Shown one piece after another: positions 32,362-54,767 of a stretch of 63,840 bases of DNA. The position numbers were made by a program, and so were the translations under genes. Source of the stretch: an uncultured Bacteroidales bacterium. Its GTDB lineage: Bacteria > Bacteroidota > Bacteroidia > Bacteroidales > Paludibacteraceae. A model generated the notes under the pieces. The model searched no databases, was not told the DNA's origin, and saw only the letters and a list, made by a program, of their open reading frames with translations. Within the stretch, counting starts at the first letter, position 1. Each line of letters opens with the position of its first letter. Location: assembly GCA_900316995.1 (NCBI GenBank), contig ONEZ01000021.1, positions 1 through 63,840 on the forward strand. Reading direction: 5' to 3'.

Positions 32362-32500
32362 CTTTGGTTTTATAGTGTTTCATGGACTCAGCCCTTTTGT
32401 AAAGGGCTTCGGCCCTCCCATACAGGTCTATGACCTTATGGGCCCCTCCCGCTATACGTCTCCGCGGGTGGAGACGCCATTCAACACTATCAAACCAAAG
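32362..32500. repeat. R4 structured element, copy A
   Basis: A 139-base unit between clpB and the radical-SAM gene. Its 24-base ends (32362-32385 and 32477-32500) pair with three mismatches. Inside are GCCCTTT-TGT-AAAGGGC (32391-32407), CCCATA-c-AGGTC-TAT-GACCT-TATGGG (32417-32442) and GTCTCC-GCGGGT-GGAGAC (32458-32475). The loop GCGGG of the last hairpin can pair with CCCGC at 32448-32452, a possible pseudoknot. Copies B (35532-35741) and C (54620-54767) share the core but have different end sequences. Confidence 0.8.
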
Positions 32501-32586
32501 TATCTACACAATGGTATGACAAAACATGTACCAAAAGAAACATATACTGAAAATCAAATCAAAACTGACAGAATGGCAGAAGGGAA

Positions 32587-33597
32587 TCAGTCTATGAGAG
32601 GGTCTGTGGCGGAGGGAGAACCGTTTAGAATGTGCGCCACTTCACGGCAGCCGGCGTCGCAGTCTTGCACCTGCGGGCATGAAGCGCATTTTAACGGCTT
32701 GTATGTAGAGTTTATAAAAGTGTTCCAGTAGGCTGTGTCTGTTATCTCTGGTGTGGAGAATATATGTCCTATCACTCTTGGAGAGTGGTTGCAGACTCTT
32801 ATACTGCCGTTAGGACTGATTACAAAGAAACTTTTGGCTGCGCTGCAATGTGTTCCTATCTTCAGGTGCTTGTAGTGGTCTATACCCTTTTTGATTATAC
32901 ATTTAGGAAACTCTGTGCCCGTGAAACCGTAGCGGTCTGCATAGCTTAGGACCTCTTCTGCAGTGTCAAGCATACCGTTTATCTGCTCTTTTGTGAGCTC
33001 AAGTGTCTGGCGGTATTGCAAGCCTCTGCCTCCAGGCAGAAAACGGTTAAGGAGTACTGTGTTAGCCCCTGCTATAAGGGCAAGAGACATGGTCTTGAAA
33101 AGCTCATCATAGTTAAGTTTTGTAACTGTGATATTGGCGGTTGTGCGCAGTCCTGCATCATGAGATTTTTTTATCCAGCTTAGAACGCCTTCTGCATTGT
33201 CCACAGCCGTATGCTCCTTGAATGTCTTGTACCCTGGCAGACTGAGGCTTAACTGCACGTTATTTTGCCTGAAACACTCTAAAAGTTCATCAGTGAGTGA
33301 CCTGCCATTAGATATAAGCACAATCCTTGACGACATTTCTCTTTTGTGAAAAGCCATCGATGCGTAGTTTATAATTTCTTTAATATCAGTGCGTAATATG
33401 GCTTCACCTCCAGTAAAGGTTATGGTTAGCGAGCCGTTGCTGAGCACCTTGTCTATTACCTGAAACCACTGCTCTGTAGTTAGCTCTCCGCCCTTTTCAA
33501 AACCACCAGAGGGGTTCTCCCATGGGCATGAACAAAACTTGCACAAGTGGTTGCACCTGTACGTAAGCTCTAATACCGCTGATTGCGGAAACTTCAT
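32587..33597 (-). CDS. Radical SAM/SPASM protein
   Basis: The 336-residue enzyme has the radical-SAM cluster motif CNHLCKFC (CxxxCxxC, ~14-21), a GGE motif in TFTGGEAILR (~62), and a C-terminal SPASM domain with cysteines in GTHCSAAKSFF, IRVCNHSP and CASCPQVQDCDAGC. Such enzymes modify peptides or proteins (for example RiPP precursors or sulfatase maturation). Its ATG overlaps the stop of the upstream zinc-ribbon lipoprotein gene by four bases, so that protein is the natural candidate substrate or partner. The type of modification is not evident. Confidence 0.85.
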   Translation of the reverse strand: MKFPQSAVLELTYRCNHLCKFCSCPWENPSGGFEKGGELTTEQWFQVIDKVLSNGSLTITFTGGEAILRTDIKEIINYASMAFHKREMSSRIVLISNGRSLTDELLECFRQNNVQLSLSLPGYKTFKEHTAVDNAEGVLSWIKKSHDAGLRTTANITVTKLNYDELFKTMSLALIAGANTVLLNRFLPGGRGLQYRQTLELTKEQINGMLDTAEEVLSYADRYGFTGTEFPKCIIKKGIDHYKHLKIGTHCSAAKSFFVISPNGSIRVCNHSPRVIGHIFSTPEITDTAYWNTFINSTYKPLKCASCPQVQDCDAGCREVAHILNGSPSATDPLID

Positions 33598-34154
33598 CTC
33601 CCAAGCATGTTTTTCAAAGCGTCAGCCTTCTCAGAAAGTGGAATGGAATCTCCCCATATAACAAATTGGTTATCTCCGTTTAAGGCAGCCTCCAGAGCAT
33701 AGAAATCAACTATATTAGTAGAATATGCTATATGGTATTCCTTGGCATCTGGGGCTTTGTAAGAGAATTTGAAGGTAATATCATTGTCATAACTCTCTTT
33801 AGGTATTAGACCTGCGCATTTCTTACAGATGCGCTCCACCTTGACATCGTGGCTTTTGGCTTTAAGACGCTCTATAATGGTTTTAATCTCATCAAACCTA
33901 TCATCCCACACATATATCAATTCTCCACATTGCGGGCAGGTGAACTCCTCTCTGGGCTGTGCCGGCACGTCATAACACATTGCCATCTCAGGCATGACGG
34001 TCTTTGCCCCTTTACCCGCAAGACCTTTGAGTTTTTCTATTAGACTTTGTTTCTCCATATCATTATTATCATTTTCGGCGCTGTTACAAGATACTCCAGA
34101 AACACTTAAAGCAGCAGCTGTAGCTAAAATTTTTATTTTTTCATTCTTGCTCAT
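33594..34154 (-). CDS. Zinc-ribbon lipoprotein-like partner of the radical SAM enzyme
   Basis: The 186-residue protein begins with a short lipoprotein-like leader (KILATAAALSVSGVSCNS). A linker with KLKGLAGKGAKTVMPEMAMCYDVPAQPR follows, then two cysteine pairs CPQC (~74) and CKKC (~110) that can form a zinc ribbon, and a C-terminal domain with DFYALEAALNGDNQFVIWGD. I recognise no family. The four-base overlap with a SPASM enzyme gene indicates joint function. The leader may be a genuine lipobox or a peptide-like N-terminus; either way it is an untested pair. Confidence 0.65.
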   Translation of the reverse strand: MSKNEKIKILATAAALSVSGVSCNSAENDNNDMEKQSLIEKLKGLAGKGAKTVMPEMAMCYDVPAQPREEFTCPQCGELIYVWDDRFDEIKTIIERLKAKSHDVKVERICKKCAGLIPKESYDNDITFKFSYKAPDAKEYHIAYSTNIVDFYALEAALNGDNQFVIWGDSIPLSEKADALKNMLGR

Positions 34155-34180
34155 AGATACGCTTTTTGCCCATCATTTTA

Positions 34181-34281
34181 CAAAGATAATTCAAATTACC
34201 TTCAATAGCAATAATTTAAATGCTTTTTCGTTATTTTTTAGTGATAAATGTTTGAATATCTAATAAATATCATTACATTTA
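34181..34281. promoter_or_regulatory. Divergent promoters, radical SAM pair and exported plus-strand gene
   Basis: On the minus strand TATCTTTG (34181-34188), with TTG 20 bases upstream, drives the lipoprotein/radical-SAM pair. On the plus strand TTTG (34251-34254), 19 bases, then TACATTTA (34274-34281, one mismatch) drive the gene at 34304. Confidence 0.6.
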
Positions 34282-34303
34282 CAAACAAACTCAATTTTAT
34301 TTT

Positions 34304-35530
34304 ATGAAACGTACGCTTTTTTCTGCATTATTTACACTGTTTGCAATATGTTCAAATGCCTTCACTATAAATGGCAAGGTTACTGACGCAGGCGTACCTG
34401 TACCATACACCAGTATTTATGTAAAGGAAAATCCTCAAAACGGCACAATATCAGACCTAAAAGGTGTGTTTTCTCTTGATGATGTTAATGCAGGGCAAAC
34501 CTTAGTGGTATCATTTATTGGTTATAAAACCATGGATATTAAACTTAAAAAGGCGCCTAAAGACACGTTACGTATTGGACTTGTGGAGCAACCTATTCTT
34601 CTACAGGAGGCGTCAGTGAACTCCAAAAATAAAAAACTCAGCCATAAAAAACAGATGAAACTTATGATTGCTGATGTGCGCCGGCAAATGGAGCGTGATT
34701 TTCCAGACAGCACAAACGTACGTTATAATGTTAACTCTGATTATGGCGTGTATAACTCAGATGAAGTGGTGGCTATTGAAGATTTAGGTGGTGACATAGT
34801 GGAGATGACCGGGCGAGGCAAAGACAAGAAAGATATTATTCAGATGCGTATTAATTGGATTACACGTTATCGCGACGCCCACACTCAGCGTAACTATGAG
34901 CGTCTTGACTCCACACTCAAGAAAAGCACTAACGCTAAATTAGTACATTATGCCGATTCCAGCCGATGGGTGCACAAATTCCTTTGGGGCAGTGGCATTA
35001 AATCCGGCTTTGACCGATTTTCAGACCACCCTAACCGCTGGGATGTTGAGGAACGTGATTCTGTAGTTGTTTTCTCCTACACAGAAAGCCGTAATTACAT
35101 TGGCATTGTGAAGGGAAACCTTGTGCTATCTTTCTTTCTTGACCCAATTACATATCGTGTCTTAAAGCAGTCTCAGCAGCTACAGGTTGACGTTAATATT
35201 CCATTTGGTTATAAGCTAACTAAAGAGCAGATTCAGATGCTGAATACAATTGTGATAGGAGTGCAGTTTGATAAATATAGGGTAAAACGTGCTCATGTTG
35301 ACATCAAACGTAATATCCTATACACCTCCTACCCCGATGACCGTTATGGTGTTAAAGAGAAGAATGTTATTACAAACATTCACATAGAGGATCGTCGCCG
35401 CAAAAAGCCTATTGACTTTAAACAGACAGGCTCCATTAAGGTTAATTCCGCCCAGTTTGGAGTGAGGCCATTCCCCAAGGCTGAAGAGATGGCTCGCTAC
35501 CCTCTCACCCTCAAACCCAAACCGGAATAA
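34304..35530 (+). CDS. Exported protein with carboxypeptidase-like regulatory domain
   Basis: The 408-residue protein has a signal peptide (MKRTLFSALFTLFAICSNAF), then a CarboxypepD_reg-like beta-sandwich (INGKVTDAGVPVPYTSIYVKE...GTISDLKGVFSLDDV...VVSFIGYKT, ~22-95), the type found before SusC plugs. The remaining ~300 residues are mixed alpha/beta without recognisable motifs and are typical of Bacteroidetes surface-associated proteins. Location is probably periplasm or outer membrane. The stop is directly followed by R4 copy B. Confidence 0.8.
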   Translation: MKRTLFSALFTLFAICSNAFTINGKVTDAGVPVPYTSIYVKENPQNGTISDLKGVFSLDDVNAGQTLVVSFIGYKTMDIKLKKAPKDTLRIGLVEQPILLQEASVNSKNKKLSHKKQMKLMIADVRRQMERDFPDSTNVRYNVNSDYGVYNSDEVVAIEDLGGDIVEMTGRGKDKKDIIQMRINWITRYRDAHTQRNYERLDSTLKKSTNAKLVHYADSSRWVHKFLWGSGIKSGFDRFSDHPNRWDVEERDSVVVFSYTESRNYIGIVKGNLVLSFFLDPITYRVLKQSQQLQVDVNIPFGYKLTKEQIQMLNTIVIGVQFDKYRVKRAHVDIKRNILYTSYPDDRYGVKEKNVITNIHIEDRRRKKPIDFKQTGSIKVNSAQFGVRPFPKAEEMARYPLTLKPKPE

Positions 35531-35531
35531 A

Positions 35532-35741
35532 TTACAGTGAGCCCCTTGTACAGTGCCCATTCTCAGGCTCAGCCCTTTTGTAAAGGGCACTACCTACGGT
35601 GATTACTCGCTGCATTCGGCATAATCAAAACAAGTTTTGCTTCTGCTCTCATTTGCTGAGTAACATAACGGGCCCCTCCCGCTATATGTCTCCGCGGGTG
35701 GAGACGCTTCGTATGGGCACTGTACAAGGGGCTCACTGTAA
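35532..35741. repeat. R4 structured element, copy B, with 29-bp perfect terminal repeats
   Basis: The 29 bases at 35532-35560 (starting TTACAGTGAGCCCC) are the exact reverse complement of 35713-35741. Inside, GCCCTTT-TGT-AAAGGGC (35572-35588) and GTCTCC-GCGGGT-GGAGAC (35688-35705) are the same as in copy A. The middle hairpin is replaced by another fold, with TTACTC (35603-35608) pairing GAGTAA (35658-35663) and an AAAAC-AA-GTTTT tip (35627-35638). It begins one base after a stop codon. Confidence 0.85.
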
Positions 35742-35880
35742 CTTCTGTTTAAAAAACATTATCAAAAGCCCAAAATTCATATATTATTATTATCTTTGGC
35801 ACAAAATTGATAGATATACAATAGCCTATAGCAAAAAACTATTAGACACTATAAATATTAACTAAGCATTACTATCGTTT

Positions 35881-36054
35881 CACGTTCACCCGAAAGGCCT
35901 AGGAAACTTATTTGGAATAGAACATACAGAAACGAGAAAAGATGTAGTCTGGATTTGACACATTGATTTTCAACGATAGGAATCACCGCATTATATGCGT
36001 GTGTTTTCTTCGGAAAATCAAAGGTTCCAATCCTAGGCTGCCTTGGTGAACGTG
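35881..36054. ncRNA. Candidate long-stem structured RNA or inverted-repeat element
   Basis: Five stacked complementary blocks close a 174-base segment: CACGTTCACC (35881-35890) with GGTGAACGTG (36045-36054), AAGG (35894-35897) with CCTT (36041-36044), CCTAGGA (35898-35904) with TCCTAGG (36031-36037), and TTGGAA (35912-35917) with TTCCAA (36025-36030). Inside are TTGATTTTC (35963-35971) with GAAAATCAA (36013-36021) and a CGCAT-TAT-ATGCG tip (35987-35999). It is single copy here and has no matching family that I know. It may be a small RNA, a mRNA leader structure or a relic mobile element. The strand is unknown. Confidence 0.45.
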
Positions 36055-36091
36055 CGAGAAAACCACGCATTTCTTTTGTACGTACACCGAC

Positions 36092-36123
36092 GTGAATTGA
36101 TAGAACTGCTACAATCAATTCAC
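36092..36123 (+). promoter_or_regulatory. Perfect 10-bp inverted repeat just before the sulfatase ATG
   Basis: GTGAATTGAT (36092-36101) and ATCAATTCAC (36114-36123) flank a 12-base loop and end four bases before the ATG at 36128. It could hide the start region in mRNA or be a repressor operator. No Bacteroidetes -7 box is clear nearby. Confidence 0.5.
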
Positions 36124-36127
36124 ATTT

Positions 36128-37924
36128 ATGAACAAATTTATCCAGTTTCGGGACAAATGTAGAGAGTCAAAGTACGTTTCGTTAATCATCTTCTGTTTTC
36201 TTGCAATTAATTTATTTCTTCAGTGTGTTATAAGTCATTGTCAGATTTTTAATTCGATACTAATATCGTCAATAATAAGTCAGCCTGTAGTAGCATTGTC
36301 GTTTTATGCCCCAAAACTGATAATTTCATTATCACTTGCAAGCTTTGTTTTCCTGTTCAAAGATAAACGGTGGTCTGTAATTATTTCAATTATTGTAAAT
36401 GTTTGGATATATGCTGAGTTGATGTACTTCAGAGCAAATCATCTTACACTTGATTCATATACAATGATAATGGTGAGCAATATGGAAGGCTTTTGGTCGA
36501 GTTTACTATTGCTTATTAATCCAATAGATGTTATATATTTCATATTATCATTGGTGTTTCTTGCCCTAACATGCATTTTTAATAATAATAAATTTGAATG
36601 GAAAACATTTCTTGTTGTATTTGTAGTTTGTCTTATGGCGAATACAATTGATTGCTTCGTTAAATGGAAAAAAATTGATAATGAACATTCCAAAATGTTG
36701 ATTGAATTAATAGGAGAATCAGGTGATGAAATTTTTCCTCCAGGTGCAAATGGTCAGCGTGTTGATTTATTTCTTCATCCATTTTCTTTTGATATGGTTG
36801 GTCAACTATATGGAACAAATGACAAATATCTATATGATTACTCCATTATACATGCATTGTTGTATAATTTGAAAGAACTTATATCAATGAAAAGTGATAA
36901 AACTGAGTTAGATAATATAAACTTAGATTTATTAAATCATGGAAGTATTGAAGTTAGTCATGATGGTAAATTATTAATATGTTTAATTGAAAGCCTTGAA
37001 AACTGGGTAATTACTCCTGATTATACTCCTAACCTTTTCAAATTATCTAAAATGAGTAATATATTGTATTGTAACAAAATTACCTCACAGGCACGTAGAG
37101 GTACATCTGCCGATGGTCAAATGATAGCCGTAACAGGTATGTTACCTATAAGGGGTGGAGCTGTGTGTTTTAGGTACCCTCATAATAGATTTCCCTCAGT
37201 TTTTGAAATTTACAAGAAAGAGCCTAATTGTGCATTCTTCCCACACAACTTAACAGTTTGGAATCAAGAAGAGATGAGTAAAGCATATATGATTGATACA
37301 AATTACGTGGTGCCTGAGTATGATAACGTGTTATTTAGAACAGTTTGTGATTCTGCAAGATATTATTCAAACATGCTATTTATTACATCTTCCACTCATT
37401 CTCCATTCACAAAACAATCAGATAGCTCAAGACTATCAGTGCTAGATGATATGCCAAAGTTTATGAAAGCATACATAAAGAGCTGCAATTATATGGATGA
37501 GTCTGTTAAAATTTTAATTGATCATATTGAAAATGATCCTGTTTTTTCTGATTATACTATTGTAATAACAGGTGATCATACTATATTTCAAGATGAGAAA
37601 CGAGATGAATTCGTACAATATTGTAAAGAAAAGAAGTTGGAACTTTCAGTAGAAGAAGCCTATTGCCCATTGATAGTATATTCTCCAAAAATCAATGGTA
37701 ATATCAATATTACTGATATCGCTTATCAAATGGACATATACCCTACAATCCTTCACTTAATAGGATGTGAAGATTATTATTGGAAGGGATTTGGTGTAAA
37801 TCTGCTTGATTCTGTTGCCAGAAAGAATCGCCCCATCACTGAGGATGAGGCGTTTGAACTTTCAGATAAAATTATAAGAGCTGATTATTTCAGGACATAC
37901 CTTGACTCTTTACATAATTACTAA
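36128..37924 (+). CDS. LTA synthase/phosphoethanolamine transferase-like membrane sulfatase
   Basis: The 598-residue protein has about five N-terminal transmembrane segments (~18-40, 45-70, 78-100, 130-155, 160-180) and a periplasmic alkaline-phosphatase-fold domain (~270-580). The expected catalytic threonine is in ARRGTSADGQ (~335), with metal-binding HSPF, ITGDHT (~490) and DIYPTILHL. Relatives add phosphoethanolamine or glycerol phosphate to lipid A, glycans or teichoic acids. The substrate is unknown. The gene is distinctly AT-rich relative to its neighbours, suggesting later acquisition. Confidence 0.82.
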   Translation: MNKFIQFRDKCRESKYVSLIIFCFLAINLFLQCVISHCQIFNSILISSIISQPVVALSFYAPKLIISLSLASFVFLFKDKRWSVIISIIVNVWIYAELMYFRANHLTLDSYTMIMVSNMEGFWSSLLLLINPIDVIYFILSLVFLALTCIFNNNKFEWKTFLVVFVVCLMANTIDCFVKWKKIDNEHSKMLIELIGESGDEIFPPGANGQRVDLFLHPFSFDMVGQLYGTNDKYLYDYSIIHALLYNLKELISMKSDKTELDNINLDLLNHGSIEVSHDGKLLICLIESLENWVITPDYTPNLFKLSKMSNILYCNKITSQARRGTSADGQMIAVTGMLPIRGGAVCFRYPHNRFPSVFEIYKKEPNCAFFPHNLTVWNQEEMSKAYMIDTNYVVPEYDNVLFRTVCDSARYYSNMLFITSSTHSPFTKQSDSSRLSVLDDMPKFMKAYIKSCNYMDESVKILIDHIENDPVFSDYTIVITGDHTIFQDEKRDEFVQYCKEKKLELSVEEAYCPLIVYSPKINGNINITDIAYQMDIYPTILHLIGCEDYYWKGFGVNLLDSVARKNRPITEDEAFELSDKIIRADYFRTYLDSLHNY

Positions 37925-37934
37925 GTTGAGCAAG

Positions 37935-38132
37935 TTATTCAGTCGTTGGCTCTCCAACACTGAAATGTTCGTCACAATAATCGGTTACAAGGTCTGAGTA
38001 GTGTTTGAGCTCGGATTCGAGTTCATCTATTTTAGACGTAAAGCTAGGATCTGTTTCATCAAGCTGTTTTAGGAGGATTTCTACTCTTTCAACAGCCTGA
38101 TTATATTCCTCAATTGTTTCAATCTTTTTCAT
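37935..38132 (-). CDS. Small acidic protein following hipA
   Basis: This 65-residue, strongly acidic helical protein (MKKIETIEEYNQAVERVEILLKQL...ELKHYSDLVTDYCDEHFSV) resembles the N-terminal helical domain often found before HTH domains in HigA-type regulators. The ATG at 38130-38132 begins one base after the hipA stop (TAATATG), so it is co-translated; a start at 38147 would be inside hipA. It may modulate the toxin-antitoxin module. I found no firm family. Confidence 0.65.
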   Translation of the reverse strand: MKKIETIEEYNQAVERVEILLKQLDETDPSFTSKIDELESELKHYSDLVTDYCDEHFSVGEPTTE

Positions 38133-38133
38133 A

Positions 38134-39423: not shown

Positions 39424-39426
39424 AGG

Positions 39427-42679: not shown

Positions 42680-43690
42680 TTATTTAAAGTTGCGGTCTCG
42701 TTCCTGATAGATTCGCTCTATAATGTCAACCACCTTCATGCCTTCAAGCAGATTGGTAGCTATGGCGCCTTTGGAGTTCAGAGTCTGTATAACATTCTCA
42801 ATCACAAAACCGTGGTTCTGAGCAGCACCCTTGTATGCGCCAAAGTCATTATCATGAGTAGGCTCCTTTAGTTCAGGCATCTCATAGTTCTCCACATGGC
42901 AGTGAACCACAGTATCCATGTATTGGCCAGCCACCTTAACGGTACCCTTTGAACCTATAATTGTAACAGAACTCTCAAGGTTCTTGTCCCACACAGATGT
43001 TGAGTAGTTCAAGCTACCCATGCCACCGTTAATAAAGTCAAAGTTCACGCATCCAGTATCTTCAAACTCAATGAGGTCCCCGTGAGAGAAGTTGGCAAAC
43101 TTGCCACGAATGTTAGTAATATCACCAAAGAGCCAGTAAAGCATATCCACATAGTGGCTGAACTGAGTAAAGAGCGTGCCACCGTCAAGTGCATTGGTTC
43201 CGTGCCAGCTGCCTTTCTGATAGTATTTCCCATCACGGTTCCAGAAAGCGTCAACCTTTACAAAGTATATATCACCAAGTGTCTTGTTCTCAATAAGCTC
43301 CTTAAGCCAAACCATTGGTGGTGAGTAACGATTCTGCATAACACAGAATACAGAGCGTGACATCTCAAGTGACTTGAAAACTATCTTCTCTGCATCTGCC
43401 TTGGTTAGTGCTATTGGTTTCTCAAGCACCACATGTTTGCGTGCTTCAAGCGCCTTGATGGCATACTCTGCATGGTAACCGTTAAGGTTGCAGATATTCA
43501 CTACGTCTATGTCTTCACGTTTAAGAAGCTCATCATAGTTATTATAGTAATCCTCTTTAATTTCTGGGTCTATCTTCTCTTTTGGAAGAACATCACAAAC
43601 GGCTACAAGCTCTGCATTGGGATTACGGCGAATCATCTCCGCATGTCTTTTCCCGATGTGACCAAGTCCTACAACTGCAAATTTTATCAT
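42680..43690 (-). CDS. wbpB: UDP-N-acetylglucosaminuronate 3-dehydrogenase (WbpB/WlbA-like)
   Basis: This 336-residue Gfo/Idh/MocA oxidoreductase has the Rossmann start KFAVVGLGHIGKRHAEM (~2-18), the EKPIAL motif (~95) and the sugar-site H in YHAEYA/SHYVDMLYW. With adjacent WbpD- and WbpE-like genes it would oxidise C3 of UDP-GlcNAcA in synthesis of UDP-2,3-diacetamido-uronic acid. The ATG at 43690 (MIKFAVVG) is the natural start. The open frame extends to 43714, into the wbpD end. Confidence 0.85.
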   Translation of the reverse strand: MIKFAVVGLGHIGKRHAEMIRRNPNAELVAVCDVLPKEKIDPEIKEDYYNNYDELLKREDIDVVNICNLNGYHAEYAIKALEARKHVVLEKPIALTKADAEKIVFKSLEMSRSVFCVMQNRYSPPMVWLKELIENKTLGDIYFVKVDAFWNRDGKYYQKGSWHGTNALDGGTLFTQFSHYVDMLYWLFGDITNIRGKFANFSHGDLIEFEDTGCVNFDFINGGMGSLNYSTSVWDKNLESSVTIIGSKGTVKVAGQYMDTVVHCHVENYEMPELKEPTHDNDFGAYKGAAQNHGFVIENVIQTLNSKGAIATNLLEGMKVVDIIERIYQERDRNFK

Positions 43691-43710
43691 AATTTTCTTT
43701 ATACTAATTG

Positions 43711-44286
43711 TCAACTAACTCTTGTAACGTTCCCATTCTCAAGCTTATAGACTTGTCCTGTGGCGGAGCAAGTGGCAAGGCCGTCTGCGCCAAAGTGAAG
43801 TTTCTGGCCGTTCTCGCTAACCCAGCCAAGCTGACGGGCAGGGTTCCCTACCATAAGCGCAAATGGCTTAACGTCTTTTGTTACTACGGTGCCTGCTCCT
43901 ATAAGAGCATACTCCCCTATTGTGTGGCCGCAAACTATAGTGGCGTTAGCGCCTACGCTGCAGCCTTTCTTTAGCAGGGTTTGCTTGTACTCGTCCTTGC
44001 GGCTTACGTGGCTGCGTGGGTTAATAACGTTAGTGAATACCATAGACGGACCCATGAAAACGTCATCTTCAGCTATTACACCTGTATATACTGATACGTT
44101 GTTCTGAATCTTAACGTTATTGCCAAGGATTACATCGGGCGATATTACCACATTCTGTCCTATGTTGCAGTTCTTTCCCATCTTGCAACCGCTCATTATA
44201 TGGCTGAAGTGCCATATTTTAGTGCCTTCTCCTATGATGCAGCCGTCATCTACGTAAGATGACTCATGCTTGAAATAATTTTCCAT
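43711..44286 (-). CDS. wbpD: UDP-3-amino-uronate N-acetyltransferase (WbpD/WlbB-like)
   Basis: The 191-residue left-handed beta-helix acetyltransferase has repeated hexapeptides ([51 protein letters not shown]) and the family marker [31 protein letters not shown]. It acetylates the 3-amino group made by WbpE. The start was taken at ATG 44286 ([13 protein letters not shown]); upstream codons come from a TAATAATAATTATTATTATT tract. It lies between wbpE and wbpB. Confidence 0.9.
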
Positions 44287-47444: not shown

Positions 47445-47460
47445 ACAATTATATATTTTA

Positions 47461-47498
47461 AACTCCTTAACTCCTAAGCTCCTAAACTCCTAAACTTT
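47461..47498. repeat. Octamer tandem run
   Basis: The gap between the sugar transferase and the Wzi-like gene contains units of AACTCCTA (AACTCCTT, AACTCCTA, AGCTCCTA, AACTCCTA). Like R1 it is a simple tandem run, with period 8. Confidence 0.8.
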
Positions 47499-47501
47499 AA
47501 A

Positions 47502-49022
47502 TCATTTTGATCTTTTCCGTCTGAAAATAATGTTAAATAATATCATCCAAAAATACTTGAAGTCAGTTATAAACACTCCGTTCTTTTCACAAGCTTTCAA
47601 ATATTTCATCTCCGATGCCTGAATCTCATCAAGGGTTTTAGGCATATCAGCGTAGAAAGGAGGCATGAGGCCTGGTTTGAATTTTATTCTCAACTCCTGT
47701 AACTCAATGCAGTACAGGTTGAAATACTGGTTGCTGAGCGGGCGAACACCCACAAGCTTCATATCACCCTTGAACCAGTTAATAAGCATTGGAAGCTCAT
47801 CAAGCCAGCATCTTCTGGCAAATTTACCAAGTGTGCTAACCCTAATATCATGGTTAAACTTGCCACCCTCCTGCACTCCGCAGGTATCATAAATATACTG
47901 CTGTAAAAATTCAGAGTATGGATACATGGTGCGCAGTTTGTAGAACTTGAACACACGGCCGTTCTTGCCCACACGATTCAGGGCTATCAGCGGACCGTAG
48001 CGGCGCTTCTTATACATAGGCGGCTCCTGCTTACGGCGTGCTACAAAATAGGTGTAATGCTCTATCTTTTTCTCTGCAACTATCTCAAAACCACAATAAT
48101 ACAAACGCCCGAACACTTCAGTCTTAGAGAGCACGCGGCGTTTGCCGTTTGTTATATCATAGTAGAGGCGCTTTGTGAGGAACAATTTTGGTATGACACG
48201 CTTTAAAATGTAGTAGAACGTGTAAATTATCCAATTTATACCCCATGGGTACTTTGACAGTATTTGGTGTTTCTTTACACTCTTATCCTTAAACACACCC
48301 ACAATGAGACCGTTGTCTGGAAGTTTCTCATTTATGGTGGAGAACATACGGTTAATGCCTCTTATATTGTTCAGACTTCGTATGTTGACTATTGTGTCAA
48401 ACTTGTATGGTGTAATCTGCTCAAAATTAAACAGCTCTGTGGTGGCAAAAATATTAGTGTTAGAGCTGTGAATGTCTATCTGCCCGTCGAGCCATTCAAA
48501 AGCCTTCTCGCCCATCCATGCCAGCATGGCTTTTTTGCGTGACTCATACCCCTCATCTGTTATCCTCGATGCCGGCTTAATCACGCTCTTGGGCATACGC
48601 TTCTTTACAGGCTTGACATTCATCTCCGGATCAGAAGCGTAACGCAGTGCAAAATAGATTGATTGTATTATTGCCAAGAAAAGGAAAACGGTGACAGCAA
48701 TGGCTACAATAAGCAGTATTGAGTAGTTTGGGAAGTGACGGTACATTATGAAAGCACCAATTGCGAGTGTAATAAGCGTTGTGTTGAACGCCACACCCAT
48801 AGCCTTGCCGTAGCTTTGGTCTTTTAGTCGTCTCTTGTATCTACCATGCAACATTGCCACAATAATCCAGGCAATGGAGTATGGCAAATATATGTAGCTG
48901 TATTTTGTAAAAGGATCTACAGCATTCAGTGGCGTTATCCAAACCACAAGAAAGAATGACACTGATAGTGCCACCACGTCAAATAGTAGTTGACGAAATT
49001 CAAATGTGATTTTCTTTGCCAT
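47502..49022 (-). CDS. Membrane sugar transferase initiating or extending polysaccharide synthesis
   Basis: The 506-residue protein has four N-terminal membrane segments (~12-30, 42-60, 72-92, 100-125), then a variable middle domain with a methyltransferase-like NIRSLNNIRGINR stretch. A C-terminal bacterial sugar transferase domain follows (~340-500: VFKFYKLRTMYPYSE, RRCWLDELPMLINWFKGDMKLVGVRPLS). This domain transfers a sugar phosphate to undecaprenyl phosphate. Unlike WcaJ, the membrane helix usually preceding the catalytic domain is not obvious. The 49046-49053 -7 box drives it. Confidence 0.85.
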   Translation of the reverse strand: MAKKITFEFRQLLFDVVALSVSFFLVVWITPLNAVDPFTKYSYIYLPYSIAWIIVAMLHGRYKRRLKDQSYGKAMGVAFNTTLITLAIGAFIMYRHFPNYSILLIVAIAVTVFLFLAIIQSIYFALRYASDPEMNVKPVKKRMPKSVIKPASRITDEGYESRKKAMLAWMGEKAFEWLDGQIDIHSSNTNIFATTELFNFEQITPYKFDTIVNIRSLNNIRGINRMFSTINEKLPDNGLIVGVFKDKSVKKHQILSKYPWGINWIIYTFYYILKRVIPKLFLTKRLYYDITNGKRRVLSKTEVFGRLYYCGFEIVAEKKIEHYTYFVARRKQEPPMYKKRRYGPLIALNRVGKNGRVFKFYKLRTMYPYSEFLQQYIYDTCGVQEGGKFNHDIRVSTLGKFARRCWLDELPMLINWFKGDMKLVGVRPLSNQYFNLYCIELQELRIKFKPGLMPPFYADMPKTLDEIQASEMKYLKACEKNGVFITDFKYFWMILFNIIFRRKRSK

Positions 49023-49045
49023 AGTACTTTTCTTAGTTCAAGCTG

Positions 49046-49053
49046 CAAAGATA
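49046..49053 (-). promoter_or_regulatory. Promoter -7 box of the sugar transferase gene
   Basis: TATCTTTG on the minus strand, giving a leader of about 19 bases to ATG 49022. Confidence 0.6.
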
Positions 49054-49071
49054 GTTATTTTAATTGAAAAT

Positions 49072-49115
49072 TGAGACGTGTTGATGAACACGAAGTGTGA
49101 ATAATTGAAAGTTGA
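49072..49115. repeat. R5 hairpin unit, copy 2
   Basis: GAGACGTGTTGATGAACACGAAG (hairpin CGTGTT-GATG-AACACG) followed by TGTGAATAATTGAAAG. It borders the 3' end of the FemAB-like gene. A second direct copy borders the 5' end. Confidence 0.75.
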
Positions 49116-49119
49116 CGAG

Positions 49120-50031
49120 TTAATGAAGAAAATGAATAGATTTAATGCTGAAATATAACTTTCCTATTGAATATAGGTATGTGTTATTGATATGGAGATA
49201 ACGGCCGTGCTCCACCAGTTCTCCGCCAAAACGGAGTTTGAAGTCTCTTACGCCGTATGGTACGCCTGGTGTGCCTGCCCCCATTGTGTCAAATGTGGTT
49301 TGGGTTGAGCGTATTGCTCTAATGATTGTTTCCCAATAGAGAATTACAGAAGGGCTTTCTGCCGGATACTGAGCATCGAGGCCACAGGCATAGTAGTCAT
49401 AAACTGTTTCATGGTCAGAGACTTGAAGCATGCCGCCTATAACCCGGTCATTCTTAAAAGCAAGCAGGTATCTTCCATACCCCGATGCAAATATTTTCTC
49501 AAAAAACTCCCACTGGAACAGGGGTTTGCGAACCTTGGTCTTGTAGTGGTTGCATAGTAGCGTGTAGAAGGCACTCACTTCATCCAAGCTCCTGGCGTAG
49601 CGTACTTCCACTCCGCTTTCTACAGCTCGCTTAATCTGACGGCGACGGTTGGCGTCCATTCTGCTTAAACAGTCGGCTATGCTGTCACACGCTATCTTTA
49701 CGTTCAAATGTGGCTGGTATTCAAAACCACAGCGTTCAAATATATGCCTGTATGCTGAGTAATCCTGCTCACAACGTATCTCTGTGTAGATTGCATCCTT
49801 GGTAACTTTCCTTAACTTGCCTAAAAGTTCTTCCACCTCATCTTCTGTAGCGTTCTCCCCTATCACCGGCCCGCCTAATATGACTGCTCTACGTGAGAAC
49901 CAACCTTTCAGCCTGCCCTTTTCACGTTGCACATAACCCATTACATGCGTGTTGGGCGTGGCCACGTAAAAGGTCTTCACGCAGTTCAGGCTGCTGAAGA
50001 ACGTTAGGGCCGTGTTGGACTGAAAAAACAT
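49120..50031 (-). CDS. FemAB/GNAT-type acyltransferase-like protein
   Basis: The 303-residue protein fits the Bacteroidetes FemAB-like/GNAT group seen in polysaccharide loci. It has an N-terminal half with RAVILGGPVIGENATEDEVEELL (~48-75), MDANRRRQIKRAVESGVEV (~140), and a GNAT-like core (GRYLLAFKNDRVIGGMLQV, ~190-210), with the family tail TMGAGTPGVPYGVRDFKLRFGGE. It probably attaches an amino acid or acyl group to a sugar or lipid carrier. Substrate is unknown. Two R5 direct repeats flank it and it is transcribed with the polysaccharide genes. Confidence 0.75.
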   Translation of the reverse strand: MFFQSNTALTFFSSLNCVKTFYVATPNTHVMGYVQREKGRLKGWFSRRAVILGGPVIGENATEDEVEELLGKLRKVTKDAIYTEIRCEQDYSAYRHIFERCGFEYQPHLNVKIACDSIADCLSRMDANRRRQIKRAVESGVEVRYARSLDEVSAFYTLLCNHYKTKVRKPLFQWEFFEKIFASGYGRYLLAFKNDRVIGGMLQVSDHETVYDYYACGLDAQYPAESPSVILYWETIIRAIRSTQTTFDTMGAGTPGVPYGVRDFKLRFGGELVEHGRYLHINNTYLYSIGKLYFSIKSIHFLH

Positions 50032-50037
50032 GATTAA

Positions 50038-50085
50038 TTGAGAATTGAGACGTGTTGATGAACGTTAGTGAATAATTGAGGGTTA
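50038..50085. repeat. R5 hairpin unit, copy 3
   Basis: GAATTGAGACGTGTTGATGAACG, then TTAGTGAATAATTGAGGG. Same orientation as copy 2, immediately upstream of the FemAB-like gene. Confidence 0.7.
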
Positions 50086-50106
50086 AAAGTTTATATAAAC
50101 GATTAC

Positions 50107-50169
50107 GGAGCGTAGCGACAAGCAGGCTTCTGCCTGCCGTGCGGAGCACGAAAAGGCATCGAAGATGCC
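50107..50169. repeat. R3 hairpin string, copy 2
   Basis: GGAGCGTAGCGACAAG, then stems GCAGGC-TTCT-GCCTGC, CGTGC-GGA-GCACG, AAAA and GGCATC-GAA-GATGCC. Compared with 56898-56958, every stem changed on both arms while staying complementary. It is in the gap between the porin and FemAB-like genes. Confidence 0.8.
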
Positions 50170-50201
50170 AAAAACAAGGAAAATGTTTCAGTATTCATGG
50201 T

Positions 50202-51572
50202 TCACCATGAATACTGAAACAGTGCAAGTATTCTGTGATTACCTACCCAGTGCAGGTTGTTCTCCACTATGCCGTTTGTAAGGTTACGGGTGGTGGCATC
50301 GCCGTACTGAGCGGCTGTGTAATGATATTCTACACCCACCATAAACTTGCCAAGACGTACCTTAAAACTTGGAATAATTCTCCAATACTGGTTTATTCCT
50401 GGGCTGCTCTGCCCGTTAACATACACGTGCTCGGCATCGCAGATAGGTTCATACGTACCCAAATTCTTGAAATATCCGCCAAACACAGAGCCTATGTACT
50501 TGCTTCCATACTGAATGAACATCCAAGTGGAGCTGCTGTGTAGCGGTGTGTATTCCCACGTGCCGTCAGCACGCATTTTTGTTACTGCATAACCGCTTAT
50601 CAGGTTTATGTGCTCGCCTGCCTCTGCGTATGAGGTCTTGGCATTGATTAAGAAATCCTTGTGGCGATACTCCATAAACAGGTACGGGGTGAACGATGTC
50701 ACCCGGTCTTTTACCAGAACTTCAACTCCGTTTGCGTCAATGCCTGTCTTTCTGGGTTTTATGCTCAACACATCAACACCTATTCTTGTGGTAAAACCTT
50801 TGTCTGAGTATGTAAATGCAAGCAAGGCTTCCGGAATCAGACCATAACGCTGATATGCAGAACTTGCCCCCTCCGGTCCTGTTGACACATATTGCATCTG
50901 TGCCACCAGCGATGCTGTGAGGGTAAAGCGATTGTCAAATGTTGCGTCCATAGTGATTTGCGGTGAGCGGTTTGATACATCAAACGGCGAGCCTGTGTCA
51001 AAACTCAGGGTCTCACAGTTGCCTCGTGAAATAGGATGCCATGTCTGTCCAAAGAGCATCTGCACTTTGGCTGTTTTGTTATTTGCTATTGGAAGGTCTT
51101 TCCACATCATTGTAAAGTATGCATGTCTGAGCCTCAGCGCCACTGCAAATGTGCCGTTGGCTGAAAAGGCGAAGTCTGCCTCTATCTTGGCTCCAAAGTG
51201 CGTGCTTTTATATTTGTAGTCCTTTACGTCAAGCCCTAAACGGCTGGTTATGCTCAAGTACCTGAACTCTGGTGTGGCGTTCAAATCCTGTCCGTACTCG
51301 TTTAGATTAACGTCTTTAGGCACAAAATAGTATAGGCCGCTTATAGGCGCAAAGCCCTGACGTGTGTCGTATGTGAGGTAGCTGCGGGCGAATCCGTAAA
51401 AATTAAAGTGGGCTTTCCACTCTTTTTTTGCTTTCTCCTTTCGCAAGGCTTTCTTTTCTGCCTTGGTAAGGGTCTTGACGGTGTCTGCAGCGTTGGCGGT
51501 TTCTTGTTCTGCTCCGTACCCCGATGTTATCATTGCAGTAATTGCAATTAAGATTAGTAGTAGTTTCTTCAT
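50202..51572 (-). CDS. Porin-like outer membrane protein
   Basis: The 456-residue protein has a signal peptide (MKKLLLILIAITAMITSGYGA) and a lysine-rich segment (TLTKAEKKALRKEKAKKEWKAH, ~32-55). A large antiparallel barrel follows, with FYGFARSYLTYDTRQGF, FEFYLS-type aromatic strands, QTWHPISRGNCETLSFDTGSPFDVSNRSPQI, and a C-terminal RILALFQYSW. It resembles DcaP/alginate-type or Bacteroidetes porins and could pass small glycans across the outer membrane. Its place beside the deacetylase and polysaccharide genes supports an export or uptake role. Confidence 0.78.
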   Translation of the reverse strand: MKKLLLILIAITAMITSGYGAEQETANAADTVKTLTKAEKKALRKEKAKKEWKAHFNFYGFARSYLTYDTRQGFAPISGLYYFVPKDVNLNEYGQDLNATPEFRYLSITSRLGLDVKDYKYKSTHFGAKIEADFAFSANGTFAVALRLRHAYFTMMWKDLPIANNKTAKVQMLFGQTWHPISRGNCETLSFDTGSPFDVSNRSPQITMDATFDNRFTLTASLVAQMQYVSTGPEGASSAYQRYGLIPEALLAFTYSDKGFTTRIGVDVLSIKPRKTGIDANGVEVLVKDRVTSFTPYLFMEYRHKDFLINAKTSYAEAGEHINLISGYAVTKMRADGTWEYTPLHSSSTWMFIQYGSKYIGSVFGGYFKNLGTYEPICDAEHVYVNGQSSPGINQYWRIIPSFKVRLGKFMVGVEYHYTAAQYGDATTRNLTNGIVENNLHWVGNHRILALFQYSW

Positions 51573-51590
51573 AAATTATAATTTCAATTC

Positions 51591-52382
51591 TCAACTCTTT
51601 GATATCAATCTCCTTTTAATAACATTCTTAATGTTTTGCACCACAAACTCAATAGCCCAATGGATGGGGTCGTTGGTCCAGCGCTGGGGATGGGTGGTTA
51701 TCATAAGGCGTGGCGGCAGTTTGGATTTGTTTATGGCGTTTATTACATCTCCTGTAGTGTGATATACCAGACCTGCTTTGACCCACTCATCCTGATACTG
51801 TGGTATTTTGTCTCTTACGCTCACTTTGTATCCGTCCCACATTCTGCCTGTGTCTGTGAGGTAGAACATTTCACTGAAGTCTATATCAAAGTACGGCTCT
51901 CCTATTACTCCGCAGTTACGGTAGTCATATTTTTTCCATAAGTCTTTGCCGTCATATTTGCTTGTGGGTGCTCCGTGCATACATATTGTCTTTACGGGAT
52001 AGAAGTTACGGAAATACTTAAGCCATTGCAGAAAGTGCTGGTATGCCTTCTCTGTGTTGCCGTGGCAGATGCTCATATCTTCATAATGATACCCTATCTC
52101 ATGCCCCATTTCTGCAATTGCTTTAATAACAGCCGGTTTGTTGCTTTCTGGTACCACTCTAAAGTAATATGAGGCTTTAACTCCTTGCGAATGTTCTATT
52201 GCTGCAATTTGTTCTGAATTCTTCGCTTGTAAGTCAACATCGTGGCGGAGTATTACAAGGCGCTCAGGCTTGGCATCGCCGCTGGCATTGAGACTACAGT
52301 ACTCTTCAAAGGTCAGGAACTTATACCCCGCCGCTTTTAAGGCTGTAATAAGCTCTGTATATTTTTTTAATGTGAAATCCAT
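51591..52382 (-). CDS. Polysaccharide deacetylase-like protein
   Basis: The 263-residue protein fits the NodB-like carbohydrate esterase 4 fold as found in surface-polysaccharide loci: LVILRHDVDLQAKNS (~42-56, metal-binding HDxD), GHEIGYHYEDMS (~95, H-x3-H), and TTHPQRWTND (~230). The HDVD motif differs from the HDDG of classical chitin deacetylases but matches this subfamily. It would deacetylate a sugar unit. No signal peptide is seen, so cytoplasmic. Confidence 0.82.
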   Translation of the reverse strand: MDFTLKKYTELITALKAAGYKFLTFEEYCSLNASGDAKPERLVILRHDVDLQAKNSEQIAAIEHSQGVKASYYFRVVPESNKPAVIKAIAEMGHEIGYHYEDMSICHGNTEKAYQHFLQWLKYFRNFYPVKTICMHGAPTSKYDGKDLWKKYDYRNCGVIGEPYFDIDFSEMFYLTDTGRMWDGYKVSVRDKIPQYQDEWVKAGLVYHTTGDVINAINKSKLPPRLMITTHPQRWTNDPIHWAIEFVVQNIKNVIKRRLISKS

Positions 52383-52397
52383 AGCTTTTTGTATTCA

Positions 52398-53297
52398 TTA
52401 CCACGGTTTTATATCATCACGACCGTATATAAGTTCATACTCAGTTTTAGGTCCGTTGTATGTAAACTTGTATTCTGTTACTTTATTTATACCTCCATCC
52501 AAGCTGGCTATAATTATATAGCATATCATGCCTTTTTCAAGTATATGTTCATCATTGTCATTATCAACGTCAATGCCCATACTGGCAAAATTGGCAGTTA
52601 AGTCAATGGGTTCTTCATCTTCATTTCCATAAATCCAACGCTTTAAGAATTTATTGGGGTCTTTTTGATACATCTCTTCAAACATCTGCTCATCAATATA
52701 ACTCCATACGTATGGAGAGTAATCAATCACCTTACCCTTTTCATCAAGCGGATAAATATAAAACCAGTTTCCACTCACACGTGCGTTAAAGTGTATGTTG
52801 ACAGCCTGATGTGTAAGAGTCTCTACTTCAAGTGTATATAAATCTCCGATGGGCTTGTTTGAAGAAGGATCCACCGCAAATGCGAATATATGATACTTTG
52901 CCCCCTCTTTCAAATCCTGAAAAAACTTTTTCACTGGCCCGTATCTGAGTGAGTGTGAAGCAAAGTCCGCCACAGTAGTAACTCCAGACTTGAGGAATGA
53001 GTATCGCCATTCTACATACTCCACGTATGCACTGTCAATCATAAGACTCATAAACTGTTTTGGGTTTTTACGCATGAGGTTTACATACTCAGTGTTAGAG
53101 TCTGGCAGTATGTTCATATAGTAATAAGCCTCTTTATTGGTGGTGAACTCCGCCTCCACGTAGCTTAGAGACTTACGTTTCTGTTCTATCTTTATAGATA
53201 CTTTCTTTGTGTAGTATTTAGCATCAGGGTCACACGATGTTAAACACAGCACTGTCAGCAAACTTGCCAAATATAATATTATATATGACTTTCTCAT
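52398..53297 (-). CDS. Lipoprotein of unknown function
   Basis: The 299-residue product has a lipoprotein signal (LASLLTVLCLTSCDPD, Cys ~22) and two beta-rich halves of similar look, one around VSIKIEQKRKSLSYVEAEFTTNKEAYYYMNILPD (~35-70) and one around QAVNIHFNARVSGNWFYIYPLDEKGKVIDY (~165-195), each followed by DxxYVEYVEW- or YIDEQMFEEMYQKDPNKF-type helices. It may be a fibronectin-III-like pair. I recognise no family. It is two bases after the lipase-like gene, so they are co-transcribed. Confidence 0.65.
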   Translation of the reverse strand: MRKSYIILYLASLLTVLCLTSCDPDAKYYTKKVSIKIEQKRKSLSYVEAEFTTNKEAYYYMNILPDSNTEYVNLMRKNPKQFMSLMIDSAYVEYVEWRYSFLKSGVTTVADFASHSLRYGPVKKFFQDLKEGAKYHIFAFAVDPSSNKPIGDLYTLEVETLTHQAVNIHFNARVSGNWFYIYPLDEKGKVIDYSPYVWSYIDEQMFEEMYQKDPNKFLKRWIYGNEDEEPIDLTANFASMGIDVDNDNDEHILEKGMICYIIIASLDGGINKVTEYKFTYNGPKTEYELIYGRDDIKPW

Positions 53298-53299
53298 AC

Positions 53300-54610
53300 T
53301 TAATCCTCCTCCCTCTTTAGTAGTGTGCTCACGCTGTAAATAAAGCGTATGGCAGTATAAGTGTGTGAACCGTAGTGCCCAAAATTATATTTGATGTTAG
53401 ACATGTCCCACTTGTTCTTGGCATTCTGTGCGTTAATATATGGAACGGTCTCATCATCCATAGAGTGAACCATATACACGGGTGCCTTAGGTTCAAAGTC
53501 AATACTAAGTATTGAGTTGTTTTTCATGGCTTTATACAGCACTGCCACGTAACTGCTTGTACGGTCCTGTCCTACAGATGAAAGTATCTGATTAACGTCT
53601 TTGGTGCCAATTAGTTTATTTATCTCAACCGTAGTGTATTTTTTACTGTTAATCCACTCGTCAATGTTGTTTGCCACATGCGGGGTTAGCAGTACTTTTA
53701 TATCCAAACCAAGTTTGTCACTCTGGTTCATACCTTGTATAACTAGCGGTACTGCGCATGGATAGCTGACTTGACCTCCTGTCACATAGCTGTCATACGT
53801 GGCCACAATGTCATACGGACCTCCGCCCACAAATACACTCTTAATCTTATCCGGGATATAATGTAATTCCTCTATAGCATACTGTACTGCCATAGTTGCT
53901 GCACCTCCTTGTGAGTAGCCCATGAGGTAAATATCATCATGTAGCGGCTTTCTGCCTATTGCCTCCATATATGGTTTCACTGCCTTGAACATATCCAGCA
54001 CATTCTTTGCGGTGAGTTTCAATGAGAGGTACGGATGTATCCTGTTACTTGTAACTCCATAGCCAAGGTAGTCTGGGAATATCATTGCATACCCCTTTGA
54101 TGCAAGCACTGCCTCAAGTGGAAAACAGTTTGACGGTGCTTCTGCATTTGAACCTATTGTATAGTGTGACACCAGTATATAGCGTTCAATCGGGCCCTTG
54201 ATAGGCATCACTATCTTGCCCGACAGGGTTACAGGCTGGTTATTCTCATCCACTGAATTATAGGTGCCCACCACTTGTATCACGTCATCGCCGTTATAAT
54301 AGTCAATAAGGTTCTGTAATATGGTAGCCATGCTTGTGGATGTGGTCCTGAGTTCTCCTTCTGCGGTTCCTGTATTACTAATTGTGCCTGCCGCCACTCC
54401 GTCTGAGTACTCTCTCATTGTCATACCTCCCGGCAGATAGGTGTTACCTGGCAGCTCGGCTTCCACGCTTGTGTTTCCTATGCTGTACGGTTGAAAGCAG
54501 TCTGCTCCCGCCGTTACTTTATACTTCTCAAAATCCACAAATTCTGGTTTGCGGAACTGACACGATGTCAATATTAGTGCAATTGATAATATGTATATAG
54601 TTCTTTTCAT
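53300..54610 (-). CDS. Lipoprotein alpha/beta hydrolase, secretory lipase-like
   Basis: The 436-residue protein has a lipoprotein signal (SIALILTSCQ) and an alpha/beta hydrolase domain with the nucleophile elbow GYSQGGAATM (~225), DYLGYGVTSNRIHPYLSL (~180), MVHSMDDETVPY (Asp/active-site region, ~385), and a likely catalytic His in FGHYGSHTYTA. It resembles secretory lipase/esterase proteins. It may cleave esters on a surface polymer. Position in the polysaccharide region is suggestive only. Confidence 0.78.
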   Translation of the reverse strand: MKRTIYILSIALILTSCQFRKPEFVDFEKYKVTAGADCFQPYSIGNTSVEAELPGNTYLPGGMTMREYSDGVAAGTISNTGTAEGELRTTSTSMATILQNLIDYYNGDDVIQVVGTYNSVDENNQPVTLSGKIVMPIKGPIERYILVSHYTIGSNAEAPSNCFPLEAVLASKGYAMIFPDYLGYGVTSNRIHPYLSLKLTAKNVLDMFKAVKPYMEAIGRKPLHDDIYLMGYSQGGAATMAVQYAIEELHYIPDKIKSVFVGGGPYDIVATYDSYVTGGQVSYPCAVPLVIQGMNQSDKLGLDIKVLLTPHVANNIDEWINSKKYTTVEINKLIGTKDVNQILSSVGQDRTSSYVAVLYKAMKNNSILSIDFEPKAPVYMVHSMDDETVPYINAQNAKNKWDMSNIKYNFGHYGSHTYTAIRFIYSVSTLLKREED

Positions 54611-54619
54611 ACTTTTCTC

Positions 54620-54767
54620 ATAGTGATTTCATTGATTATATCTCAAGACTCAACCCCTCTGTGAGGGGTTTCGGCCTTCCCATACGGGTCTGTGACCCTA
54701 TGGGTCCCACCCGCTATATGTCTCCGCGGGTGGAGACACTTTCGATATTAATCAATGAACTCACTAT
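54620..54767. repeat. R4 structured element, copy C
   Basis: Basal stem ATAGTGA-t-TTCATTGATTA (54620-54638) pairs with TAATCAATGAA-c-TCACTAT (54749-54767). Inside: ACCCCTC-TGT-GAGGGGT (54653-54669), CCCATA-c-GGGTC-TGT-GACCC-TATGGG (54679-54704), GTCTCC-GCGGGT-GGAGAC (54720-54737), and ACCCGC (54709-54714) able to pair with the last loop. The first two hairpins differ from copy A by compensatory changes on both arms. Confidence 0.85.

Follow-up and report, generated by a model that had tools for sequence, protein, structure and literature searches.

What preserves the pairing of two arms whose letters differ from copy to copy? The question is raised by three intergenic copies of an element, R4, in the window (the whole stretch of DNA analysed, 63,840 nt of contig ONEZ01000021.1 from an uncultured Bacteroidales bacterium). 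A sequence-only reading had proposed a structured RNA or a hairpin-propagated element, with outer arms pairing over 24 nt with 3 mismatches in copy A, at 29 of 29 positions in copy B and at 18 of 19 in copy C. These pairings are as claimed, and the coordinates and hairpins of the three copies are as it described. The parts, given with the strand that folds, are:

32362..32500, minus strand (the folded strand): complete R4 copy A, matched by the model at G000:C32:32380-32482 with 118.1 bits
32362..32385, minus: copy A basal arm, 3′ in the folded strand; one side of the tandem G·A lies at TC 32380-32381
32391..32407, minus: copy A hairpin 1, last of the folded strand, with an ACA loop
32417..32442, minus: copy A middle hairpin, hairpin 2 plus its CCCATA/TATGGG base
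32448..32452, minus: copy A CCCGC, which pairs with the hairpin 3 loop in the pseudoknot; CCCNC/GNGGG covariation with four pair types
32458..32475, minus: copy A hairpin 3, first of the folded strand, with the pseudoknot loop
32477..32500, minus: copy A basal arm, 5′ in the folded strand; the other tandem G·A side lies at TC 32481-32482
35532..35741, minus: R4 copy B, whole element, broken by a second repeat; match G000:C32:35561-35712, 54.9 bits
35532..35560, minus: copy B basal arm, 29 nt, perfectly paired to 35713-35741
35589..35663, strand not assigned: second repeat inserted in copy B in place of the middle hairpin's 5′ half
35688..35705, minus: copy B hairpin 3 with the pseudoknot loop; partner CCCGC at 35678-35682
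35713..35741, minus: copy B basal arm, partner of 35532-35560
54620..54767, minus: R4 copy C, whole element; match G000:C32:54642-54744, 114.7 bits
54620..54647, minus: copy C basal arm; one tandem G·A side lies at TC 54643-54644
54653..54669, minus: copy C hairpin 1
54679..54704, minus: copy C middle hairpin
54720..54737, minus: copy C hairpin 3 with the pseudoknot loop; partner CCCGC at 54710-54714
54739..54767, minus: copy C basal arm; the other tandem G·A side lies at TC 54742-54743

For each copy, none of 200 dinucleotide shuffles folds as well as the copy itself (z of −6.8 in A, −10.0 in B and −8.3 in C). In an ungapped stem scan of the 35 window gaps of at least 40 nt, where the gap of copy B is cut by an ORF call, the top scores are those of A and C (both 16; shuffle maximum 9 and 8), and three further gaps likewise score above the threshold (11, 14 and 13 at best). 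Hairpin 2 of copy B had been taken for an alternative fold; its 5′ half has instead been swapped for the second repeat, which is also present in L003, L012 and L078.

A covariance-model search of 16 genomes of the genus places the three window copies in a family of 87 matches, spread over 7 of those genomes. Copy number ranges from 0 to 24 per genome, with no match in 9 of the 16, and members are also found in other Bacteroidales families. A simpler pattern, the pseudoknot plus hairpin 3 with up to three mismatches, occurs at 15 sites in the element's own genome and at none in the reversed control. As the sequence-only reading had anticipated, relatives with compensatory changes are found in related genomes. 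The stems and the pseudoknot covary across the genus, with two-sided changes in 69 cells vs one-sided changes in 4 (24 sequences), which bears out both the hairpin covariation and the pairing of the hairpin 3 loop with its upstream partner. Hairpin 3, described as invariant, is so within the window; across the genus it covaries along with the pseudoknot. The folded strand runs from the basal stem through an H-type pseudoknot hairpin and a middle hairpin to a third hairpin, with G-rich linkers. A few pairs below its top, the basal stem is usually interrupted by a purine-purine internal loop, often tandem G·A: in 54 of 68 copies both sides of its first mismatch run consist of purines only, and in 24 the run is exactly GA/GA.

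The strand that folds is the complement of the one that had been drawn. Among the 68 of 73 copies with an arm score of at least 12, the arm mismatches on the strand drawn earlier are A·C in 28 cases and G·U in 1, and on the minus strand they are accordingly G·U in 28 and A·C in 1. The asymmetry is 23:1 when counted by distinct context and 31:5 in the core stems of 65 unique copies. It holds in both gene settings, labelled for 52 of the 68 places (9:1 in the 20 sense and 14:0 in the 32 antisense places). In 17 copies outside the genus the counts are G·U 8, A·C 3 and other 26, an 8:3 ratio that is not significant. The 28:1 asymmetry indicates that selection acts on one folded single strand, so that a strand-symmetric cruciform or template switching alone is insufficient. 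Wobble asymmetry can thus reveal, from sequence alone, the folded and selected strand of a palindromic repeat.

The basal arms are paired but largely private. Of the 87 matches, 73 have sufficient flank and a core of 95-108 nt. The arms of 88% of these pair with each other (score at least 15), compared with 2% of 400 cross-copy pairings, and the median pairing score is 19.5 for own arms vs 2.0 across copies. Pairing, not sequence, is therefore what the basal stem preserves, as had been proposed, and this suggests that shape rather than letters is recognised by some cell component. The claim that arms differ in every copy holds within the window; elsewhere, some subfamilies have common arms, for example AATGGAATATCTGTTGCAACGTAAG. 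Near-identical cores can carry unrelated arms (in one pair, 98.9% core vs 33% arm identity). In the bins below 95% core identity, mean arm identity is 0.56-0.64; it rises to 0.68 where cores are 95-99% identical and to 0.78 at 100%, the shuffled null being 0.57. With so weak a link, the idea that arms and core diverge together was rejected. At orthologous loci, diverged columns number 5 of 288 in the arms vs 74 of 912 in the nearby flank. The difference (p 0.003 from four non-overlapping pairs) points to a function or to protection of the arms where they stand, leaving room for a local RNA role.

At orthologous sites R4 is present in some genomes and absent from others, and many loci are common to several species. 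The copies stand in opposite orientation at 9 of the 14 shared loci inspected, in some cases with related arms (groups 1, 12 and 14). Where the arms are related, the core may have been inverted between the palindromic arms; where they are unrelated, re-insertion or replacement could be responsible. Relative to codirectional genes, R4 copies lie in both orientations (38 and 24), in a count where 8 of the 87 matches are at contig edges and several copies fall inside spurious or real ORFs of a simple gene caller. Promoter- or terminator-like signals beside 75 copies show no clear enrichment.

Three empty sites were read by eye, with edges blurred by flank divergence and, for copy B, a right flank that is not collinear. 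Neither arm rises above shuffle level at any of the three, the 3′ arm of copy A being borderline (score 9; shuffles average 6.9, and 6% of them score as high). This argues against copying of the arms from the target site during insertion, and insertion into the loop of a pre-existing terminator hairpin was rejected on the same ground. No target-site duplication was recognised at these sites, given the blurred edges and the single usable flank of B. Capture of the arms from elsewhere was also considered: the limited DNA set searched contains 94 matches of at least 15 nt outside the element list, and nearly all of the 30 of these listed are the same copies or their subfamily. Second outer stems (score at least 10), which had prompted the idea of insertion into a terminator loop, are found in 9 of 76 copies vs 0.3% of 600 cross pairings. 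The search for a partner covered two protein families and identified no mobiliser. PF01797 (Y1, RAYT-type) is present in 2 of the 16 genus genomes (G005 and G009) and was not found in the six genomes with at least six copies, whose assemblies are 78-96% complete. PF00078 reverse transcriptase is present in 5 of the 16 and absent from G000, G003 and G010, and none lies near the listed R4 copies.

As far as our searches reach, R4 is an undescribed interspersed family of a gut-bacterial order. Rfam gives no match in the window at the gathering score, and E-value scans return only weak or off-element matches, none over the element (in scans of 14 and 6 loci, one off-element RAGATH-22 at E 0.22 and one tRNA). 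Like the candidate structured RNAs of Rfam, R4 has covarying stems, a pseudoknot and one-strand G·U tolerance; unlike them, it matches no family at the gathering score and has many scattered copies per genome. REP/REPIN sequences are described in PMC3733652 as short, intergenic, multicopy and palindromic, the palindrome carrying a GTAG tag at one end, and their recognition is proposed to be in the form of a folded single strand. R4 shares the first four properties, and the same mode of recognition is proposed for it here, but it is about 140-150 nt long, with several hairpins and a pseudoknot, and has no family-wide stem sequence; the six copy-rich genomes yielded no Y1 transposase. MITE-type repeats, in the same source, are 70-300 bp, non-coding and gene-adjacent, with terminal inverted repeats. 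R4 resembles ERIC, RUP and NEMIS in all of these respects, but its terminal repeats differ among many of the copies of one genome while pairing within each, and its fold is conserved on one strand only. The contrast with MITEs drawn earlier stands for the many private arms and is weaker than claimed where subfamilies have common terminal arms. The basal stem of retron msr-msd RNA is formed from its two ends, varies in sequence and encloses hairpins. R4 has such a stem, but is scattered and multicopy, and no reverse transcriptase was found in G000, G003 and G010 or near the listed copies. A repeat on Azospirillum plasmids (39 records, 305 places) has about 38 nt in common with R4 at 95-97%. The R4 model finds nothing in it with default filters and gives E 0.016 and 0.037 with filters off over 1.7 kb; in an alignment of 11 of its copies, no enclosing stem is seen.

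The best reading is an ERIC/REPIN/MITE-like mobile repeat recognised as a folded strand. That R4 is a non-autonomous mobile intergenic family, with one functional folded single strand recognised in trans, seems to us evenly balanced between right and wrong. A putative trans-acting enzyme would recognise the folded strand, as RNA or single-stranded DNA, during propagation; recognition would need the basal stem only as a helix, leaving its sequence free to drift through G·U intermediates. Covariation, own-arm pairing, the strand asymmetry, the purine-only internal loop, the patchy copy number and the arms missing at the empty sites count for it. Against it stand the two protein families that yielded no mobiliser, the empty sites without a recognised duplication, the low divergence of orthologous arms, the weak strand support outside the genus, and copies whose cores are near-identical but whose arms are unrelated, which are unlike whole-parent copying unless cores are homogenised. 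In an improbable variant R4 would be a bacterial counterpart of SINEs, with the minus strand, folded as RNA or single-stranded DNA, serving as its own transposition intermediate; fold-back copying would re-make one arm from the other, so that new copies would keep a near-identical core and gain private paired arms.

Of the two forms proposed by the sequence-only reading, a structured RNA is plausible, with single-stranded DNA fitting the same data; templated propagation, if strand-symmetric, would not produce the strand asymmetry of the mismatches. A structured RNA with a local job, a minus-strand transcript of each copy acting in cis or as a small RNA and kept folded by selection in place, its spread occasional and mostly old, is possible although we lean against it. 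RNA-like covariation and wobble on one strand, the low arm divergence and the loci common to several species agree with it; the promoter- and terminator-like signals without clear enrichment, the mixed orientations both to genes and at shared loci, and the nine genomes without a match do not. Size, intergenic position and the subfamilies with common terminal arms recall a classical MITE, whose inverted repeats would be read as double-stranded DNA by an ordinary transposase and whose old copies would have decayed. This is quite unlikely, since many arms without recognisable common sequence still pair, double-strand recognition predicts no strand-specific wobble, and no target-site duplication was recognised at the three empty sites with their blurred edges. 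Palindrome correction by replication template switching, a mechanism described in PMC8794818, could keep arms paired and flip the core even if no folded strand were under selection; the excess of two-sided changes and the opposite orientations with related arms fit such a neutral process. As a full account it is very improbable, the strand asymmetry and the conserved purine-only loop being unexpected if the process is strand-symmetric, but it may contribute to inversions.

A mobiliser, if found, would show whether shape can be enough for a bacterial repeat to spread while the sequence of its stem is free. The many shared loci where cores have been inverted or replaced form a natural test set for the origin of compensatory change and palindrome inversion. 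The L071 locus, where G010 and G002 carry one other palindrome and G003 a different one, had raised the idea that intergenic gaps generally need some palindrome. As a general rule this was rejected, long stems not being general in the window gaps.

R4 is a real, structured family of interspersed repeats, most likely a non-autonomous mobile repeat that is recognised as a folded single strand and whose basal stem is free in sequence. The window is a complete contig (G000:C32) of a 2.15 Mb genome, 83% complete, and its three intergenic copies lie where the sequence-only reading had placed them:

32362-32500, drawn on the plus strand: copy A
35532-35741, drawn on the plus strand: copy B
54620-54767, drawn on the plus strand: copy C

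Each copy folds more stably than 200 of 200 shuffles. In an alignment of 24 copies, 93.1% of the cells at 35 pairs hold standard pairs, a value that falls to 36.5–57.4% when the partner is shifted by one to three columns. The compensatory hairpin changes that had been claimed are borne out by two-sided changes at 15 of the 35 pairs (69 cells, versus 4 one-sided cells), and all four Watson-Crick types occur at one pseudoknot pair. The private outer arms also pair as proposed, with a median self-pairing score of 19.5 (73 copies) versus 2.0 for 400 cross-copy pairings; the best 68 copies have 20–48 paired arm positions (median 31.5).

A pattern of pseudoknot plus hairpin 3 (three mismatches or fewer) matches 15 sites in the own genome and its reversed control none. 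The exact pattern occurs in nine stretches of the named genome collection, all from one assembly, uncultured Bacteroidales RUG163, and pattern scans of viral contigs gave no match. A model built from the 24-copy alignment (R1) gave 87 matches with E-values up to 0.01, spread over 7 of the 16 genomes of the genus: 21 in the own genome, 24 in G001, 13 in G012, 11 in G010, 10 in G003, 6 in G002 and 2 in G009. Under stricter filters, the 358 genomes of the family yielded a single weak match beyond the genus (G183, E 0.004); E-values of the R4 models are approximate, the calibration being short. With a second model, built from 71 matches, members turned up in 4 of the 393 genomes sampled across the order (the own genome, G563, G533 and G482); in the family of G563, 4 of the 13 genomes searched hold 14 matches between them. 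Searches of related Bacteroidales with models built from the copies have recovered relatives in the genus and in other families, and 15 of 17 copies from outside the genus have paired arms. One contig (G748:C44:87-425) carries three tandem R4-like copies at intervals of about 120 nt, of which two have no paired arms. No Rfam family reached its gathering score in the window, and E-value scans of R4 loci gave only weak matches or matches off the element. Searches of open-licence PMC papers on template switching, palindromic and interspersed repeats, ERIC-type units, hairpin inversions, structured RNAs and tandem-GA mobile RNAs turned up no description of the family.

The complement of the drawn strand is read as the folded one. 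Across 942 arm positions in 68 copies, mismatches on the drawn strand are A·C 28, G·T 1 and other 7, which on the complement become G·U 28 and A·C 1. The bias is 23:1 by distinct context. Because it is the same where the drawn core is sense (9:1, 20 places) and antisense (14:0, 32 places; neither, 5:0), it is not accounted for by a mutational bias linked to transcription of adjacent genes. The core stems of 65 unique copies point in the same direction (31:5 by cell, 12 versus 5 by column pair), 15 of the 31 favourable cells falling in two column pairs. Fold energies, compared for A and C, favour the complement: -64.5 versus -60.8 as drawn and -73.4 versus -68.6, respectively. The 17 copies from beyond the genus show the same direction without reaching significance, with G·U 8, A·C 3 and 26 other mismatches. 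Read on the complement, the first run of mismatches in the basal stem has purines alone on either side in 54 of 68 copies, 24 of them with exactly GA/GA; 5 copies have a single bulged A there and 9 something else. The pseudoknot of that strand has a first loop of one base and a third loop of four to five, the usual H-type arrangement.

A simple gene caller placed 79 of the 87 matches, 62 in codirectional gaps, 10 in divergent and 7 in convergent ones; within codirectional gaps the drawn core is antisense in 38 and sense in 24, which is not significant (p 0.10). Flank comparison revealed many loci common to several genomes, and 9 of the 14 inspected carry copies in opposite orientation. For groups 1, 12 and 14, relatedness of the arms across species suggests that the element was inverted in situ. 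Small inversions in the hairpin loops of chloroplast genomes are an analogue. A published mechanism exists for replication template switching at palindromes (PMC8794818). At other shared loci arms, core type and orientation differ together, in keeping with re-insertion or replacement. At one locus in G010 and G001 (L025 and L083) the arms are common and the core differs in blocks, the altered block matching another G001 copy (L082), a pattern consistent with core conversion.

Empty sites are found in the genus. Copy A is absent from G012, where the gap measures 55 versus 244 nt between flanks of 94% and 78% identity; copy B is absent there directly 3′ of a stop codon, with collinearity in the left flank only; and a G001 copy (L066) is absent from the window at 43690-43716 (25 versus 179 nt). 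No arm exceeded shuffle level at these three sites, the 3′ arm of A being borderline, and no clear orthologous site for C was seen in G012 or G001. The main rival reading takes R4 for a structured RNA that acts locally. Six orthologue comparisons bear on it: within the 24-nt arms 5 of 288 columns are changed, versus 74 of 912 in flanks 25–100 nt away, and in four non-overlapping pairs the values are 2/192 and 37/608 (p 0.003). Core differences are 0–6% in four comparisons and 14% in one, with an insertion in the sixth. Since the arms diverge less than their flanks, these alignments speak for some function or protection at the site itself and against a purely mobile-phase reading. Beside 75 copies, T-runs and a Bacteroidetes-type promoter motif showed no clear enrichment.

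As a mobile repeat, R4 resembles REPIN, ERIC and MITE-type repeats in its mode of working. It differs from REP/REPIN in that the defining Y1/RAYT transposase, present in 2 of the 16 genus genomes, was found in none of the six copy-rich ones, and from classical MITEs in that their defining termini are not common to the R4 copies as a whole. A reverse transcriptase is present in 5 of the 16 and was not found in G000, G003 or G010; the assemblies are incomplete.

Several other repeats adjoin or interrupt R4. A second repeat (GGTGATTACTCGCTGCATTCGGCATAATCAAAACAAGTTTTGCTTCTGC...) lies within 4 of the 21 own-genome matches (window 35589-35663, L003, L012 and L078), and further palindromic repeats interrupt the pseudoknot or middle-hairpin region in two sets of copies (L076, L005, L011 and L078; L087, L093, L096 and L109). 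Different palindromes occupy the L071 locus in three other species, and at the L100 locus the window (3840-3924) has a heptad-repeat hairpin (TTGATAG... / ...CTTTCAA) where G010 carries R4. An extra upstream stretch (TATAC..TGTCACACCTAGAACGGG) is common to five G001/G010 copies (L052, L053, L059, L060 and L083), with one further occurrence, near 3061 of L065, without R4 in view. The window also holds five copies of a 52-nt repeat starting near CGTCATNCTGAG (4893-4944, 11144-11195, 11993-12044, 19565-19616 and 30074-30125), which by eye looks like the CGTC-tagged palindromes of PMC3733652. Two 300-nt direct-repeat families at 59923-60540 and 63011-63628 (84% and 70% identity, spacing 3088 nt) are probably neighbouring paralogous genes. 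Azospirillum plasmids (L167, L168 and L180-L189) carry a high-copy mosaic palindrome (39 records, 305 places) with about 38 nt in common with the middle hairpin of R4, a candidate kinship.
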